Virus record (IMG/VR): IMGVR_UViG_3300045131_002106
Coordinates: 1-31,862 of that record
Origin: a virus
Length of the DNA stretch: 31,862 nucleotides
Reading direction: 5' to 3' (one strand)
Positions 18,333-24,474 of the stretch are shown in pieces (position 1 is the stretch's first letter; each line of letters opens with the position of its first letter). Under the pieces are notes generated by a model. The model made no database searches, was not told the DNA's origin, and worked only from the letters and a program-made list of their open reading frames with translations. The translations under genes were made by a program, and so were the position numbers.

Positions 18333-19079
18333 ATGAGTGAAGTTACATTGTCCAAAATGATCGAAGCCGCAATCGACATCAACGAACTGTTGGCTTTCGA
18401 CGCCCCAATCAAAGTTGAAGGAAAAGATGTTGTCCAGATCACGGCGCAGATTGAAAAGAAGCAGAAAGGCGATGACGCTTTCCTCGCAACCGATTTTGTT
18501 CCCGGCGCCAAAAACTCCCTGAAGATTGCAACCGTGGCCGCATTAAAGGCAATGAAAGTCACAATGCCGAAAATCTGGGCGGACCGCTTGGCCGATGCTA
18601 TTGAAGACGGTGTCGTTGATTACGAAGCTCCTGCGAAAGACAAGTCCAGCGAAGTGCAGGCCAAGGGCAAGGCAAAAGTAGACGAAGCCAAGGCGAAATC
18701 CAAGCCGGCGGCCCCGAAAACAGAAGTGAAGGGCAAAAAAGTCGACAAGAAGACAGATGCGGAAGTCGAAGCAGAAGTAATGAAAGAAGTCGAAGGCGAC
18801 AACGACAGCGAAATCGAAGCTGAAGTCGTCAAAGAGGTCAAAAAAGCCGCGAAAGATGCGAAGCTCAGCAACAAGAGCATCTTCGGTCATAACCGCTCCG
18901 CAATTTCCGGCAAGATTGACGAAGAGTTGATTGCAAACGGCGGGACGCTTGAGACGATTGCGGCCGCGGCTGGATGTGATACTGCTCGCGCCAAAGCCCA
19001 TATCAATCACCTTGTCGCGAATAAAGGCGCAGAAATCACCTTGGACGAAGAGGGCAATTATGCTATCGTCCTCGCCTAA
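18333..19079 (+). CDS. Protein with Lys/Ala/Glu linker and C-terminal HTH-like end
   Basis: 248 residues starting MSEVTLSKMI. The ATG at 18333 follows AAGGAGGCTAAA. Residues 1-90 are an unrecognised alpha/beta domain. Residues about 95-180 are a low-complexity, highly charged linker (AKAKVDEAKAKSKPAAPK) with an internal repeat (VEAEVMKEV and IEAEVVKEV). The end has a helix-turn-helix-like pattern (GGTLETIAAAAGCDTARAKA then HINHLVANKG and a wing-like EITLDEEGNY). This suggests a DNA-associated protein, perhaps binding phage DNA during replication or modification. First gene of the operon, followed with 20-bp overlap by the radical SAM gene. Confidence 0.6.
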   Translation: MSEVTLSKMIEAAIDINELLAFDAPIKVEGKDVVQITAQIEKKQKGDDAFLATDFVPGAKNSLKIATVAALKAMKVTMPKIWADRLADAIEDGVVDYEAPAKDKSSEVQAKGKAKVDEAKAKSKPAAPKTEVKGKKVDKKTDAEVEAEVMKEVEGDNDSEIEAEVVKEVKKAAKDAKLSNKSIFGHNRSAISGKIDEELIANGGTLETIAAAAGCDTARAKAHINHLVANKGAEITLDEEGNYAIVLA

Positions 19080-20073
19080 TATCGTCAAGGCAGAGATGCT
19101 GTGGACGCGAAAGTGTCCACTTCATTGCGACTACTGCTCGATGGCAACAGGTCAACCCAATACTCGCGATTTAGAGTATTGGGTTGAGACTGCAAGACAG
19201 CTGAAAAAGTTGAATTGCAGTTTCGCCGCATTCTATGGCGCAGAGCCCCTTTTCGACGACATTGACAAGCTATCCAGAACGATCCAATACTTCGAGAGTA
19301 TTGGAATTGCGACCACGGTTATCACTAGCGGCTTCGTATCGAGCCTGACATCGAAACTCGATGTTCTTTGGTCGCGCAATTTGCGGAGCTTGAGTATGAG
19401 TTACGATATTTTGCCGCTCTGTGACAGTTCTAAAATCAAGACATCGAAGGCGCTGGAGACATTGCAGTATTTTCAATCACTTGGAAAATACCGGGATGTC
19501 GCGGCCATTGCAACATTGACCCGCAAGAATTTTCGCGCTCTTCCGGAAAGTATAAAAACTTTGTCGAAGATGAATATTTGGACTTTTTTCGATATGATAC
19601 ATTCGAACAGGAATCAACCGGGCTCAAAAGTTAAAGACAGCGAGATAACTCGCGAACTGCTTTTTGCCCCGGAAGATTTTAATGACTTGGCAGAAGTATT
19701 ACGCGAGGTGCTTGCACTCAAGCGCGAAGGAATGCTTTGTCATGTTTCGGAATTGTTTATCGATAAAGTTATGGCAAACGATTTCGAAGTTCTGCGGAAA
19801 TATAATTGGCATTGTTGCGATCATCTCAGTTTCCCGGCATGGGTTTCGATAGACTGCGACGGAACGGTGTCTTGTTGCGACGACTACAAGAGCGATAAAA
19901 TTAAGATCTATTCAAACAGAATAGCCGAAGATTTTCAACTGTTTTCCAAACTGTATCGGGAATCTGCGCGAGCGGAGTGCTCCGGATGTCTTTGGAACAC
20001 TCATTATGATGCCCATATGATTAAGGAAGGCCGATACGGAATCGGCAATTATATTCACGGAGAAAGAGAATGA
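19060..20073 (+). CDS. Radical SAM protein with SPASM-like C-terminus
   Basis: 337 residues. The ATG at 19060, inside the previous gene end, follows GAGGG. The radical SAM signature C-x3-C-x2-C is RKCPLHCDYC (C19, C23, C26), binding a [4Fe-4S] cluster. GAEPL replaces the usual GGEP. The C-terminal part has HCCDHL, the SPASM-like SIDCDGTVSCCDDY and ECSGCLW, probably ligating an auxiliary cluster. QueE, the radical SAM step of 7-deazaguanine synthesis, is normally shorter and lacks these extra cysteines, so this is either a divergent replacement or an enzyme modifying a later intermediate. It lies in one operon with methyltransferase, QueC, FolE and DpdA genes, implying action on the modified base. 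Confidence 0.85.
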   Translation: MLSSSPNIVKAEMLWTRKCPLHCDYCSMATGQPNTRDLEYWVETARQLKKLNCSFAAFYGAEPLFDDIDKLSRTIQYFESIGIATTVITSGFVSSLTSKLDVLWSRNLRSLSMSYDILPLCDSSKIKTSKALETLQYFQSLGKYRDVAAIATLTRKNFRALPESIKTLSKMNIWTFFDMIHSNRNQPGSKVKDSEITRELLFAPEDFNDLAEVLREVLALKREGMLCHVSELFIDKVMANDFEVLRKYNWHCCDHLSFPAWVSIDCDGTVSCCDDYKSDKIKIYSNRIAEDFQLFSKLYRESARAECSGCLWNTHYDAHMIKEGRYGIGNYIHGERE

Positions 20074-20621
20074 AAAAATTGAACCTCGGATGTGGCGACG
20101 ATATCTTGATTGGATACGACAACTGTGACATCTTTCCTTGTCAGCCGTCTGTTATCCAAGCAGACATCTTGAATTTAAGAGGAATCCCGTCGGACAATTA
20201 TGCGGAGATTAAATGTTGCATGGTTTTGGAACACGTCCATATCGACTTGGTGCCAACAGCACTGTATCAGATATCGAGAGTTCTTGCTCCAGGCGGGTTT
20301 GTGGACATTACTGTTCCAGACTTCGATTATTTCGTGCAGAAGTATTTGAACAATAAAGGCAAGTTAACGAAGACGATGAACTTCCATAACTTCTACAATA
20401 TTACCTACAATCTTCTCGCACCAGAAATCGATCCGAAAATAAGAACTCATCAAGCGTTATTCACCGAAGAGTTCCTGACGATTTTGCTGGTTGACGATGG
20501 ATTTGTTAATGTCGAAACAGTCAGGAAAGCTGGCGGGATTTTGACTGTCTGGGCATTTAAGCATGACGGGAGTTCAAGCACTTTAAAATATGATACTTCT
20601 ACGGAGAGAGAAAATGAATGA
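20070..20621 (+). CDS. Class I SAM-dependent methyltransferase
   Basis: 183 residues. The ATG overlaps the radical SAM stop (ATGA). Motif I is KLNLGCGDD, an acidic residue after GYDNCD ends strand 2, ADILNLRGIP gives the motif II region, and MVLEHVHIDLVPTALYQISR followed by VLAPGGFVDITVPD matches the COG4627-like methyltransferase pattern. Such enzymes transfer methyl groups from SAM. The substrate is unknown. Position suggests the 7-deazaguanine base or a precursor. A 7-deazaguanine methyltransferase (DpdM) has been described in phages, but I understand it has a different fold, so this would be a separate solution. Confidence 0.82.
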   Translation: MKKLNLGCGDDILIGYDNCDIFPCQPSVIQADILNLRGIPSDNYAEIKCCMVLEHVHIDLVPTALYQISRVLAPGGFVDITVPDFDYFVQKYLNNKGKLTKTMNFHNFYNITYNLLAPEIDPKIRTHQALFTEEFLTILLVDDGFVNVETVRKAGGILTVWAFKHDGSSSTLKYDTSTERENE

Positions 20622-21579
20622 AGTTCTTTTATTTTCGGGCGGCATAGATTCTTATGTTGCCTGGCATTACTTGAAGAAACCCAAGACTGTTTATTTCGAT
20701 CTGGGAACACCTTATTCCTCACGCGAGGCTCAAGCTGTATTGCAACTCGTCCCAAACACTGTGATCGACAGGAGCCTTGTTCTCGGCGATAGACAGGCGG
20801 GAATTAATGCCTACATCCCTTATCGAAACCTTTTCTTGGCAATGTTGGCATCTAAATACGGAGACAAGATTTGGATTGCTGGATTAAAAGACGACATGGT
20901 TTCAGACAAAACTCCTGCCGCTTTTTTCGCGATGGAGTCTTGTTTAAACTTTATCGACAAGAAGAAAGTCGTAATAGACAGTCCGTTCTGGAATACAACG
21001 AAATCGCAAGTTGTTGAGTGGTATATTAATCAGGCTCTCGACAAGAACGAGTTGCTGAAAACAATCTCCTGCTATAATGACAAGGAGCAGACAAATTACT
21101 GCGGCACTTGTCCAAGCTGTTTTAGAAAATGGAACGCCTTGCGCGAAAATGGAATTGACATAGAATTCTATAATCCGAAGTTAATGCAGGAATATATCCA
21201 AAGCGCCGAGAACCTTAAATACGACCCGGAGAGGAATTTGTCGATTGTTAAGTGTTGCTCAAATTATACTTGCAAGCGGATTTTTCACTTCGACATCGAT
21301 GGGGTTATTACCAACGAAACGGAAGGATGGGATTATGCGGCCCGGACACCGAATACAGAAGTAATCGACAAAATTAAGGAATTGGCAAAGGGTGGAAATC
21401 GAATAGTGTTCTACACTGCTCGTTTCTCCTGCGACCGCGAAGTGACAGAGCAATGGTTGGCGAAACACGAGATTCAATATTCGAATATCATTTTTGATAA
21501 ACCCGGATATGATTATTTCGTGGACGACAAGGCATACAATTCAATTCACGAACTTTTCAAAAACAAAGGAGCTGTATGA
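20614..21579 (+). CDS. queC: QueC-HAD fusion, 7-cyano-7-deazaguanine synthase-like
   Basis: 321 residues starting MNEVLLFSGG. The ATG at 20614 follows GGAGAGAGAAA. Residues 1-185: PP-loop SGGIDS (8-13) and a zinc site from C153 plus CGTCPSC (163-169), as in QueC, which converts 7-carboxy-7-deazaguanine to preQ0 using ATP and ammonia. Residues 222-315: HAD phosphohydrolase, with FHFDIDGVI (nucleophile D227, D229), YTAR (268-270) and a YFVDDKA motif IV. Family QueC is about 220-230 residues, so the HAD domain is an addition. The HAD half might remove phosphate from a deazaguanine nucleotide (inference). The gene overlaps its neighbours by 4-8 bases, supporting one pathway. Confidence 0.88.
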   Translation: MNEVLLFSGGIDSYVAWHYLKKPKTVYFDLGTPYSSREAQAVLQLVPNTVIDRSLVLGDRQAGINAYIPYRNLFLAMLASKYGDKIWIAGLKDDMVSDKTPAAFFAMESCLNFIDKKKVVIDSPFWNTTKSQVVEWYINQALDKNELLKTISCYNDKEQTNYCGTCPSCFRKWNALRENGIDIEFYNPKLMQEYIQSAENLKYDPERNLSIVKCCSNYTCKRIFHFDIDGVITNETEGWDYAARTPNTEVIDKIKELAKGGNRIVFYTARFSCDREVTEQWLAKHEIQYSNIIFDKPGYDYFVDDKAYNSIHELFKNKGAV

Positions 21580-22511
21580 AAACAAGATACTCAGCCGCGC
21601 AATTTTATGAAGACGTCGCTGTCGTTGCCAAATCAATCCACGCCAAAGGCAGACAGTATTCGCATATCTATCCGATTCCACAAGGTGGAATTCCTTTTGG
21701 AATGGCATTGGCAAGAGAGCTGAAGGCAATGTTTGGCAAAGCAGTTCATATTCTCGACGAAGATGAATACGAAAGCTTAAGAACCCAAAACCAAGAAATT
21801 TTAGTTGTCGACGACATTGCTGATAGCGGCAGAACACTCATGCCCTATAAAGACAGATGCGACACCGCAGTCCTGCACCTGAGGGCGTCCTGCAATTTTA
21901 TCCCAACTTATCATGCGAATTTCGTGCGAGATACTGCTTGGATTGAGTATTGGTGGGAAAATAAAAAGAGCGACATCGAAAGTCACATTGTTCGCCAAAT
22001 CGAATACATTGGAGAAGACCCAAATCGAGAAGGATTGCGCGAAACTCCTGCCCGGGTTGTGAAATCATGGAGCAAGCTGTTTGGCGGATATAAAGCATCT
22101 CTTGAAGATGTTTTCAAGACGTTCGAAGAAGGAGCTTGCGATGAGCTCGTTATCCTCAAGGACATCGAATTCTACAGTCAGTGCGAACATCACTTATTGC
22201 CGTTTTATGGTAAAGCCCATATTGGATACATCCCCGATGGCAAAGTGATTGGCGTCAGCAAGCTGGCAAGACTGCTCGAAGTATTCTCTCGCAGAATGCA
22301 AATTCAAGAAAGGATTGGAGAGCAGGTTACGACCGCGCTGATGGAGCACTTGCACCCGAAAGGCGCAATTTGTGTTCTTGAGGCTCAGCATCACTGCATG
22401 ACGTCTAGAGGGGTCGAAAAACAAGACTCGGTCATGGTGACGAGCTCAATCAAAGGCGCCTTTAAACAAATCGAAACAAGAGCGGAATTCCTCTCTTTGA
22501 TAAAGGCATAA
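21576..22511 (+). CDS. folE: Phosphoribosyltransferase-GTP cyclohydrolase I fusion
   Basis: 311 residues. Residues 1-128: type I phosphoribosyltransferase, with PQGGIP and the PRPP loop ILVVDDIADSGRTL (75-88). The late DTAWIEYWW resembles the base-binding DTWIEQPW end of guanine-xanthine Gpt enzymes (recalled). Residues 136-310: GTP cyclohydrolase I, with IGEDPNREGLRETPARV, CEHHLLPF (zinc ligands C203, H206), GVSKLARL and QHHCMTSRG (C274). FolE makes dihydroneopterin triphosphate, the first step toward preQ0. The stand-alone family length is about 190-220, so the first domain is extra. It might recycle guanine freed by base exchange into GMP, or make a deazaguanine nucleotide; both are inference. 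Confidence 0.9.
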   Translation: MKTRYSAAQFYEDVAVVAKSIHAKGRQYSHIYPIPQGGIPFGMALARELKAMFGKAVHILDEDEYESLRTQNQEILVVDDIADSGRTLMPYKDRCDTAVLHLRASCNFIPTYHANFVRDTAWIEYWWENKKSDIESHIVRQIEYIGEDPNREGLRETPARVVKSWSKLFGGYKASLEDVFKTFEEGACDELVILKDIEFYSQCEHHLLPFYGKAHIGYIPDGKVIGVSKLARLLEVFSRRMQIQERIGEQVTTALMEHLHPKGAICVLEAQHHCMTSRGVEKQDSVMVTSSIKGAFKQIETRAEFLSLIKA

Positions 22512-22515
22512 GATT

Positions 22516-23310
22516 ATGAATATTTTCATGGACAGCGGAGCGTTCTCTGCGCTTAATAAAAAGCAGAAAATCAACTTGACGGAATATATGGATTTCCTGA
22601 AAAGGAATATGAAGTATTTTTCCGCTTATGTTGTTCTCGATGTTATCGGCGATGCCGTTGCAACTTGGAAGAACCAGGAAATAATGGAGAAGGAAGGGCT
22701 TTCCCCGCTCCCTGTTTATCACTTTCGGGATAACCCAAAATATTTAGACAGGTGTTTGGAATACGATTACTTCTGTCTTGGAGGTATTGCAGGAACACCG
22801 ACGAACAATGTTCGAATTCCTTTCTTCAACGACTGCTTCGACAAGATTTGTAATGAGGAAGGGATACCGCAAAATAAAGTTCACGGATTGGGAATGACGT
22901 CTTTTTCATTAATCCGGAGATATCCGTTCTACAGCGTTGACTCTACAAGCTGGTTGATGAATGGGGCAATGGGCGGGATAATTGTTCCAATAAGAAGAAG
23001 AGGAGTTTTCGTATATGACGAAGATCCGTTCAAGATCGCCGTATCTGGAACAAGCCCGCAGACTGGAAGAGATTTGCATTACGACTCGCTCAATATGGAT
23101 GCCAAGAAAAATGTCGACGATTATTTAAAGTTCAAAGGCTATTTCCTTGGACGGAAAGACGTCGACAATAAACACGAAGAAGCAGGGCTTTACTCCAGTC
23201 ACTACGAGCGGATGAAATTGAATATGGAGTTCTTTATTGATTTCCGCAATTCATTGCCGAAATGGCCTTGGCCCATTAAATTTCACAAACAGAAAAGGAG
23301 GTTGTGGTGA
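22516..23310 (+). CDS. dpdA: DpdA-like DNA 7-deazaguanine transglycosylase
   Basis: 264 residues. A TGT-like TIM barrel: MNIFMDSGAF (D6 matches the conserved DSGGF Asp), YVVLDVIGD, PLPVYHF, CLGGIAG (matching GG-A-G), HGLGMTS and YSVDSTSW (D142 as candidate nucleophile). It is shorter than tRNA TGT (about 370) and lacks the TGT zinc site, as DpdA proteins do. DpdA exchanges guanine in DNA for a 7-deazaguanine, protecting phage DNA from restriction (established for the family). FolE and QueC genes immediately upstream, in one overlapping operon, support this over a tRNA enzyme. The subfamily and the exact base cannot be told from sequence alone. Confidence 0.85.
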   Translation: MNIFMDSGAFSALNKKQKINLTEYMDFLKRNMKYFSAYVVLDVIGDAVATWKNQEIMEKEGLSPLPVYHFRDNPKYLDRCLEYDYFCLGGIAGTPTNNVRIPFFNDCFDKICNEEGIPQNKVHGLGMTSFSLIRRYPFYSVDSTSWLMNGAMGGIIVPIRRRGVFVYDEDPFKIAVSGTSPQTGRDLHYDSLNMDAKKNVDDYLKFKGYFLGRKDVDNKHEEAGLYSSHYERMKLNMEFFIDFRNSLPKWPWPIKFHKQKRRLW

Positions 23311-23492
23311 TATTTTATTTTGCAGGTTCAGTCGAGGCAGAGACGTTAATGCCGAAGATTAAAGAGGACCCGGAAGCCGGGGTGTTATTTACATTCTTCG
23401 ACGTTCCGGATAAACGGTTTGCGCAATTAAAAAAAGAAATAAGAGACAAAAAACAAAACAAGGAGACGAAAGATGGAACTGATAGCAAGTGA
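23307..23492 (+). CDS. Small protein after DpdA, possible barrel fragment
   Basis: 61 residues. Start GTG at 23307, 5 bases after AGGAGG (a GTG one codon earlier is too close). It overlaps the dpdA stop and the clamp gene start. The N-terminus VIFYFAGSVEAETLMPKIKE resembles the first strand of some phage TGT/DpdA-type proteins as I recall, so it could be a barrel remnant or a small partner of DpdA. The end is lysine-rich. Unconfirmed. Confidence 0.55.
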   Translation: MIFYFAGSVEAETLMPKIKEDPEAGVLFTFFDVPDKRFAQLKKEIRDKKQNKETKDGTDSK

Positions 23493-24474
23493 TTTGAAAC
23501 TGCAACTGGACAAGCTGAATGCCTTGCTCTCTGCGAAGGGACTTGTTGAAAACGCCAATAAATTTGCTTTCGATCAAGAAGGGATTTATGCCTTCAACGG
23601 AGAGGTATTTATTGCCACAATTTTCCCGACAGATTTGTATGGGGCGGTTGAGGGTGATATTTTCAACAAGTTAATCAACAAGCTCGGCGCCAACAAAATC
23701 GAAATTGTTCTCGATAAAGAAGAACTCGTTATCAGAAAAGGTCGGTCGGAATCAAGAATGGCATTTGATACTGAAATTAAATGCCCTATTGATTTGTCGG
23801 TAAACAAGTGGAAAAATCTTCCCGAAGATTTCGTTGAGGCAATTAACGTCTGTTCATATACAACCGGGTCCGATTATACTGACATGAGAACGGTCTGCAT
23901 ACATTTGAAAGGAGATGTCTGCGAAGCAAGTGATGTCTTCCGCATTACTATTTTCAAAATGAAGTCTGCAATCAAAGACGAGCTTTTTATTCCGAATGAC
24001 ATCCTGCCGTTCTTCAACAAGTCGAAACCGATTAGATATTGCGTGGTCGATAACTGGACATATTTCGAAGACTTGGACGGGACAATAATTGCCCACCGCC
24101 AGCCGACGTTTGAGGGAAAATATCCAAACTTGCAAGAGAAAATATCTTCGCTCAAGGATTTTCATTTGGTGGAGCTTCCTGAGAAGTTATACGAGTCGCT
24201 GGATAAAGCGTCGATATTCTTGGATGGCAAATTTGAAGGCGATAAGTTCGTTTCGGTTACTTGCAACGATGGAACGCTGACGCTTGACAGCAAAGCGACG
24301 GGGCGCTGTTATAAAGACCAGATGAGAATCAATTTTAAGGATCATATCAAGTTCGATGTGAACCCGACCCACCTTATGCAGATAATGGAGAAGGCGAGCA
24401 TTGTTCACGTCAATTCGTCAATCATTAAAATCGACAACCCGAATTGCACTTATGTCGCGGCATTAATTGAATAA
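23473..24474 (+). CDS. dnaN: DNA polymerase sliding clamp (beta-clamp-like)
   Basis: 333 residues. The ATG at 23473 follows AAGGAGACGAAAG. Weak but consistent with DnaN: three domains of helix-strand pattern, KFAFDQEGIYAFNGEVFIAT in domain 1, AFDTEIKCPIDLSV in the linker, and a C-terminal NPTHLMQIMEKA with DNPNCTYVAALIE resembling the final strand of beta clamps. The usual length is about 365, so it is slightly short and very diverged. The clamp encircles DNA and tethers the polymerase. Position directly before the Pol III alpha gene and near a clamp loader supports it. Confidence 0.75.
   Translation: MELIASDLKLQLDKLNALLSAKGLVENANKFAFDQEGIYAFNGEVFIATIFPTDLYGAVEGDIFNKLINKLGANKIEIVLDKEELVIRKGRSESRMAFDTEIKCPIDLSVNKWKNLPEDFVEAINVCSYTTGSDYTDMRTVCIHLKGDVCEASDVFRITIFKMKSAIKDELFIPNDILPFFNKSKPIRYCVVDNWTYFEDLDGTIIAHRQPTFEGKYPNLQEKISSLKDFHLVELPEKLYESLDKASIFLDGKFEGDKFVSVTCNDGTLTLDSKATGRCYKDQMRINFKDHIKFDVNPTHLMQIMEKASIVHVNSSIIKIDNPNCTYVAALIE

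Follow-up and report, generated by a model that had tools for sequence, protein, structure and literature searches.

Phage synthesis of preQ0 and its insertion into DNA by DpdA are established (PMC6884629). The group of phages to which CP220 belongs is reported to replace dG. Modification of the 9g/Queuovirinae type involves DpdA, FolE, QueD, QueE and QueC. A figure legend on Far-T4 phages names 'PRT' beside GTP cyclohydrolase and proposes no function for it there (PMC4360716), and the literature searched, largely titles and abstracts with few subscription papers, contains no description of a fusion between a phosphoribosyltransferase (PRT) and FolE or of guanine recycling with DpdA.

Here we describe such a fusion gene in the IMG/VR virus record IMGVR_UViG_3300045131_002106, positions 1 to 31,862 (the window; 44.7% GC). 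With a probability of roughly 0.6, the N-terminal domain of its product is an active, minimal 6-oxopurine PRT of the Gpt kind, which would return the guanine freed by DpdA to GMP and so pull the base exchange forward.

The PRT-FolE fusion gene and its neighborhood

The genes and motifs considered are listed in Table 1. The start of the fusion gene overlaps the stop of the queC-HAD gene as ATGA, with AGGAG upstream at 21567-21571, and the gene ends 4 nt short of the dpdA start; a replicase gene, recognized by eye, is also among the neighbors. FolE, QueC and DpdA are all present in the 31.9-kb window fragment, in which neither QueD nor QueE was found.

Table 1. Features of the window, with coordinates, strand and basis of assignment
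Feature	Coordinates	Strand	Basis
PRT-FolE fusion gene, 311 aa, single open frame	21576..22511	+	ORF and domain matches
Gpt-like PRT domain, residues 1-133	21576..21974	+	PF00156, phrog_8995, AF2 model
PPi loop PQGG, residues 35-38	21678..21689	+	conservation of G37, G38
PRPP loop VVDDIADSGRT, residues 77-87, catalytic Asp D83	21804..21836	+	conservation of D79, D80, D83
Base-binding end WIEYWWE, residues 122-128	21939..21959	+	W122; aligns with WIEQPWD of E. coli Gpt
GTP cyclohydrolase I (FolE) domain, complete, residues 134-309	21975..22502	+	PF01227, TIGR00063, Cys/His residues
QueC with C-terminal HAD-type domain	20614..21579	+	PF06508 4.9e-17, phrog_1550, phrog_1238
DpdA, putative DNA guanine transglycosylase, DpdA1 type	22516..23310	+	phrog_887 1.2e-46
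Radical SAM protein, not QueE	19060..20073	+	same neighborhood in relatives
Methyltransferase-like protein, role unassigned	20070..20621	+	PF13489 2e-5, just under curated cut-off
DNA polymerase sliding clamp, downstream replication block	23473..24474	+	phrog_947

The HAD-type domain fused to the window QueC is small, and separate HAD homologs adjoin QueC in relatives (loci L107, L153 and L159). The radical SAM protein, which is distinct from QueE, is likewise kept near QueC in relatives of the window at 31-51% identity (for example, L107, L130, L171, L153 and L025), and L025 encodes its own QueE besides. In another locus (L001 4449-6017), the QueE match comes in two parts (residues 1-39 and 328-522), which would fit an insertion of about 290 residues.

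The original prediction placed a PRPP loop and a Gpt-like base-binding end at the N-terminus of the protein and GTP cyclohydrolase I at its C-terminus, and this architecture is borne out by Pfam, NCBIfam, AlphaFold2 and the motifs. Both Pfam matches of the 311-aa protein, Pribosyltran PF00156 (E 9.5e-8, residues 9-88) and GTP_cyclohydroI PF01227 (E 7.7e-68, residues 134-309), are above the gathering score. The NCBIfam folE model TIGR00063 is passed at the equivalog level (222.6 bits against a cut-off of 181.6), whereas the XPRT model NF006613 indicates relatedness below that level (25.2 bits against 138).

AlphaFold2 models the whole fusion with a pLDDT of 93.1 and the PRT domain alone with a pLDDT of 94.3. 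In structure comparison, the fusion model matches FolE structures, and the PRT model, a type I PRT fold with a Gpt-like hood, matches Sulfolobus HGXPRT 5bqp (Z 18.1, rmsd 1.9 over 124), a Pyrococcus purine PRT (Z 16.8) and E. coli XGPRT 4jls (Z 16.4, rmsd 2.4 over 121), followed by PyrR and HGPRTs; a ppGpp-bound Neisseria PRT is also among the matches. A profile of 16 members of the PRT family retrieves the same purine PRTs by sequence (E 4e-24 to 4e-20). The profile alignment shows counterparts for three Gpt residues, namely the catalytic Asp, the Lys that contacts O6 and the Trp that stacks on the base, and the flexible loop of Gpt, about 16-20 residues, is missing or shortened there.

The window PRT contains both the PRPP loop DDxxDxGxT with the catalytic Asp and the base-stacking Trp followed by I/V (W122 I123). 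The counterparts of R37 in the PPi loop of Gpt and of its O6-contacting K115 are Q36 and R103 in the window; among the 43 fused copies, 38 have R or K and 4 have Q at position 36, and 37 have K at position 103. From the enzymology of Gpt and HGPRT, we take the catalytic Asp to contact purine N7, the Lys to contact O6 and the Trp to stack on the base. Pocket residues of this kind would favor guanine, a purine that has N7, over preQ0.

Conservation was assessed across 136 distinct PRT sequences (43 fused and 93 separate) from the fetched loci. D79, W122 and G37 are present in all 136, D83 in 135, D80 in 134 and G38 in 131. In the 33 aligned fusions, FolE residues C203, H205, H206, H272 and C274 are invariant, and the mean pairwise identity is 0.32 for the PRT compared with 0.55 for FolE. 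The 11 PRT positions that are invariant in these fusions are confined to the two loops (PPi and PRPP) and the base-binding end, and nine of them belong to a Gpt-derived active-site set of 22 positions (hypergeometric p about 1e-6, ignoring relatedness). Retention of the active site in a domain that diverges faster than FolE is what would be expected of a domain that is still an enzyme.

The phylogenetic tree of the PRT has a supported group of 40 rows (97/83) that comprises 39 of the 43 fused PRTs and one separate copy, L109; the four other fused copies, which are GC-rich, adjoin this group. The sister of the window sequence is L141 (98/90), and a second large group (98/91) unites most of the separate PRTs that accompany DpdA3-like genes. 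The deeper branching order rests on few alignment columns.

Distribution of fused and separate PRT genes

Among 50,697 phage records, 392 match the PRT-FolE protein, 33 of them over at least 80% of its length, which was taken to denote the fusion. DpdA was seen in 31 of these 33 records, including those of three Vibrio breoganii phages and MMDA13, and the other two are the RefSeq copies of MMDA13 and VpKK5. The gene order queE-queC-queD-[PRT-folE]-dpdA-clamp-polymerase is found repeatedly, in some phages with additional genes. Given that tblastn with the window PRT domain alone retrieved only 5 phage records and missed the other fusions, the fusion was checked by alignment and with HMMs; these were home-built, each starting from a small seed of 4-21 sequences, and were refined by iteration over the loci fetched. 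DpdA1 is encoded in the locus in 48 of the 52 fused loci, a count that, as in all three locus samples, does not represent independent events, because the samples share some contigs and include near-copies. Two more fused loci, on one contig, have DpdA elsewhere in the record, and the remaining two, L041 and L044, run into the contig end within the cluster. Thus, the same fusion, which the original prediction proposed to seek in other DpdA phages, is indeed found there, and the PRT goes with DpdA.

The PRT was overlooked in part through misannotation. In phage PaMx25 (L016 7862-8792), folE was annotated from too late a start, which leaves the PRT, upstream and in frame, unannotated; an overlapping hypothetical ORF sits in another frame than the PRT. 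In the portions of the MMDA13 paper available (PMC7472734), FolE only is named.

Separate PRT genes are found in phages of Flavobacterium, Brevundimonas, Cellulophaga, Campylobacter and Synechococcus, as well as in most of the IMG/VR loci that the PRT alignment retrieved; in the IMG/VR loci, the PRT is either fused to FolE or encoded by a separate gene in the same cluster. When 80 loci were chosen by the PRT alone, 62 encoded a DpdA-type protein within the locus (18 DpdA1, 33 DpdA3-like and 11 of a third TGT family), and 4 more (L056, L036, L061 and L090) had one elsewhere in the record, the match in L036 being weaker (E 1.7e-7). No DpdA-type gene was found for the other 14 (L026, L031, L033, L034, L037, L038, L039, L041, L044, L060, L066, L087, L097 and L098), in all of which the PRT lies within 7 kb of a contig end and for which the record-wide search was uneven across models (for L060, it was run without A3 or phrog_20335).

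The DpdA3-like family is annotated as DpdA in Flavobacterium phage immuto, and the DSG and DS motifs are invariant in the DpdA1 alignment (A4). Against the solved DpdA structure 7ui4, the profiles match weakly (E 0.035 for the DpdA3-like family and E 0.3 for DpdA1, A4); DpdA3-like and DpdA1 proteins are considered putative transglycosylases, an assignment based on their motifs, the annotation of records and the labels in PHROGs. A 2023 NAR paper reportedly defines DpdA3, after which the DpdA3-like family is named here, and DpdA4; complete replacement is attributed to DpdA3. The third family has TGT motifs, and its profile matches archaeosine TGT at E 1.6e-7. Its members directly follow or overlap the PRT in L050 (3145-4389) and L079 (10366-11574), and the member in L106 (13254-14501) belongs to phrog_10773, which, like phrog_19058 and phrog_20335 among the transglycosylase families next to the PRT, is unlabelled in PHROGs. 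Tandem pairs of DpdA1-type genes occur in L025 (14313-16252) and L042 (642-2416).

Stand-alone PRTs thus accompany the DpdA3-like and third TGT families; both CP220 and phiST encode a PRT and a DpdA3-like gene. In CP220 (L102 13001-15043), a radical SAM gene is located two genes downstream of the PRT, and the PRT is about 109 kb from the DpdA3-like gene in record coordinates.

A nucleotide route without a transglycosylase was considered on the basis of 50 records, mostly with stand-alone PRTs, in only one of which phrog_887 and phrog_7068 detected DpdA. It was rejected: the apparent lack of DpdA was a sensitivity artifact, as the DpdA3-like and third TGT-like families were later found beside the PRTs. 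Phage BUCT-ZZ01 was likewise discarded as a DpdA-less exception when a third TGT-like gene was found in it.

Conversely, loci chosen by DpdA1 contain the PRT in 35 of 80 cases (32 fused and 3 separate), and those chosen by the DpdA3-like family in 37 of 80, all separate. When 48 records with DpdA or FolE were searched whole, there were 4 strong PRT matches (3 of them already in the locus) and 2 weak ones, and 42 records gave no match. Phages JenP1, ART, RHEph04 and R7M encode DpdA and FolE, with no PRT in the locus. Because many DpdA phages lack it, the PRT, common as it is, is not required, and the recycling loop is accessory. Nor is the fusion essential to the recycling idea, as stand-alone copies are the commoner among distinct sequences (93 versus 43).

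Proposed guanine recycling and alternative roles

From the predicted fold, the retained active site, the operon and the repeated association with three putative transglycosylase families, all apparent in the sequence, we infer PRT catalysis, a preference for guanine and coupling to DpdA. In the proposed cycle, DpdA would put preQ0 or one of its derivatives into phage DNA in place of guanine, freeing one guanine per exchange; the PRT domain would convert this guanine and PRPP to GMP and PPi; host kinases would rebuild GTP from GMP; and FolE, in the same polypeptide, would spend one GTP on the next preQ0 or deazaguanine. Guanine can re-enter a TGT-type exchange. Because it can thus compete with preQ0 in a reversible reaction, removal of guanine would both save GTP and drive replacement towards completion. 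The points against this cycle are the DpdA phages that lack the PRT, the missing Gpt flexible loop and the window residues Q36 and R103; moreover, hosts usually own a guanine PRT.

Alternatively, the PRT might make the nucleotide of preQ0 or of another 7-deazaguanine, as in toyocamycin-type synthesis, leading to a modified dGTP for the DNA polymerase. The discussion of PMC6884629 mentions such a route for Campylobacter phages as a proposal, and CP220 carries the PRT; in Brevundimonas phage MaInes, genes for a ribonucleotide reductase and a dNMP kinase adjoin the PRT and FolE. Yet DpdA-type transglycosylases, which use free bases, are encoded beside nearly all PRT copies, CP220 and phiST included, and the Asp that contacts N7 is nearly always kept, even though 7-deazaguanines have no N7. 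Because of this company of free-base transglycosylases and the retention of that Asp, we regard the nucleotide route as unlikely. CP220, a Campylobacter phage that encodes both the PRT and a DpdA3-like protein, is a good test case.

Slightly less likely again is general purine salvage, in which the PRT would act on host-derived guanine, xanthine or hypoxanthine with no link to DpdA. Its nearest relatives are broad XPRT/HGXPRT enzymes, as this explanation would have it, but the PRT associates with the cluster of queC/D/E, folE and dpdA, and FolE is its fusion partner in the loci examined. Cellular relatives of the PRT number at least 63 in genome_contigs; among the matches listed, none of the 63 is fused to FolE and none shares its locus with a gene for DpdA1 or for a DpdA3-like protein. 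A Helicobacteraceae MAG (L302 9896-11869) encodes an XPRT-like protein and FolE about 0.9 kb apart.

The original prediction would have been refuted had the fusion proved common in genomes without DpdA; a single such case was encountered, on one of 244 FolE-matching plasmid records. This plasmid, pSchITTGS70c of Sinorhizobium chiapasense (L344 7911-8804), has the gene order queD-[PRT-folE]-queE-queC, and its PRPP loop, DDVVNSG, has Asn in place of the catalytic Asp. DpdA was not detected in the plasmid sequence, which was searched with A4, A8 and phrog_887. Such an Asn, though a single case, would be expected if selection on the PRT were relaxed where DpdA is lacking, and the loss of the catalytic Asp in the one fusion found without DpdA also speaks against general salvage.

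The least probable of the three alternatives is a regulatory domain, a dead or slow PRT fold that would sense PRPP, GMP or (p)ppGpp and tune FolE, as might be suggested by the PyrR and ppGpp-bound Neisseria PRT matches, the short flexible loop and the Q36 of the window, but the full catalytic motif is kept and 93 of the 136 distinct PRTs are separate genes, so that the PRT is not merely an appendage of FolE.

If return of guanine to GMP is indeed the role of the PRT, this would reveal how phages meet the cost of large-scale base replacement and drive it. At one GTP spent and one guanine freed per exchange, simple arithmetic gives about 27,000 guanines for an assumed 60-kb genome at 44.7% GC and about 50,000 for CP220. 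The direction and cost of the DpdA exchange would thereby become testable, and the PRT could serve as an inexpensive marker of DNA transglycosylase systems in genomes. More tentatively, and with somewhat less than even confidence, we suggest that phage 7-deazaguanine DNA modification has, beside base synthesis and insertion, a third module that has been overlooked: a PRT dedicated to guanine recycling, which is linked with three divergent transglycosylase families and, through the removal of guanine, makes a reversible exchange nearly one-way, maybe enabling the replacement of most or all guanine in some phages.

Comparison with known systems

The window PRT resembles E. coli Gpt (XGPRT) and archaeal HGXPRT in its fold (Z 15-18), PPi loop, PRPP loop, catalytic Asp and stacking Trp. 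It differs from these enzymes in having a flexible loop shorter by about 16-20 residues, in being 18-24% identical to them and in its fusion to FolE, and from Gpt also in scoring under the NCBIfam XPRT cut-off and in having R and Q in place of K115 and R37. The C-terminal part passes the equivalog cut-off for GTP cyclohydrolase I FolE (TIGR00063) and keeps the conserved Cys and His residues; unlike an ordinary FolE, the window protein carries the N-terminal PRT domain. Compared with modification of the 9g/Queuovirinae type, the window shares QueC, FolE and DpdA beside clamp and polymerase genes, lacks detected QueD and QueE in the fragment, and adds the PRT, an extra radical SAM protein and a HAD domain. 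The same PRT family is represented by phrog_8995, labelled 'phosphoribosyl transferase', of Campylobacter phage CP220 and Cellulophaga phage phiST, in which it is a stand-alone protein and not fused.
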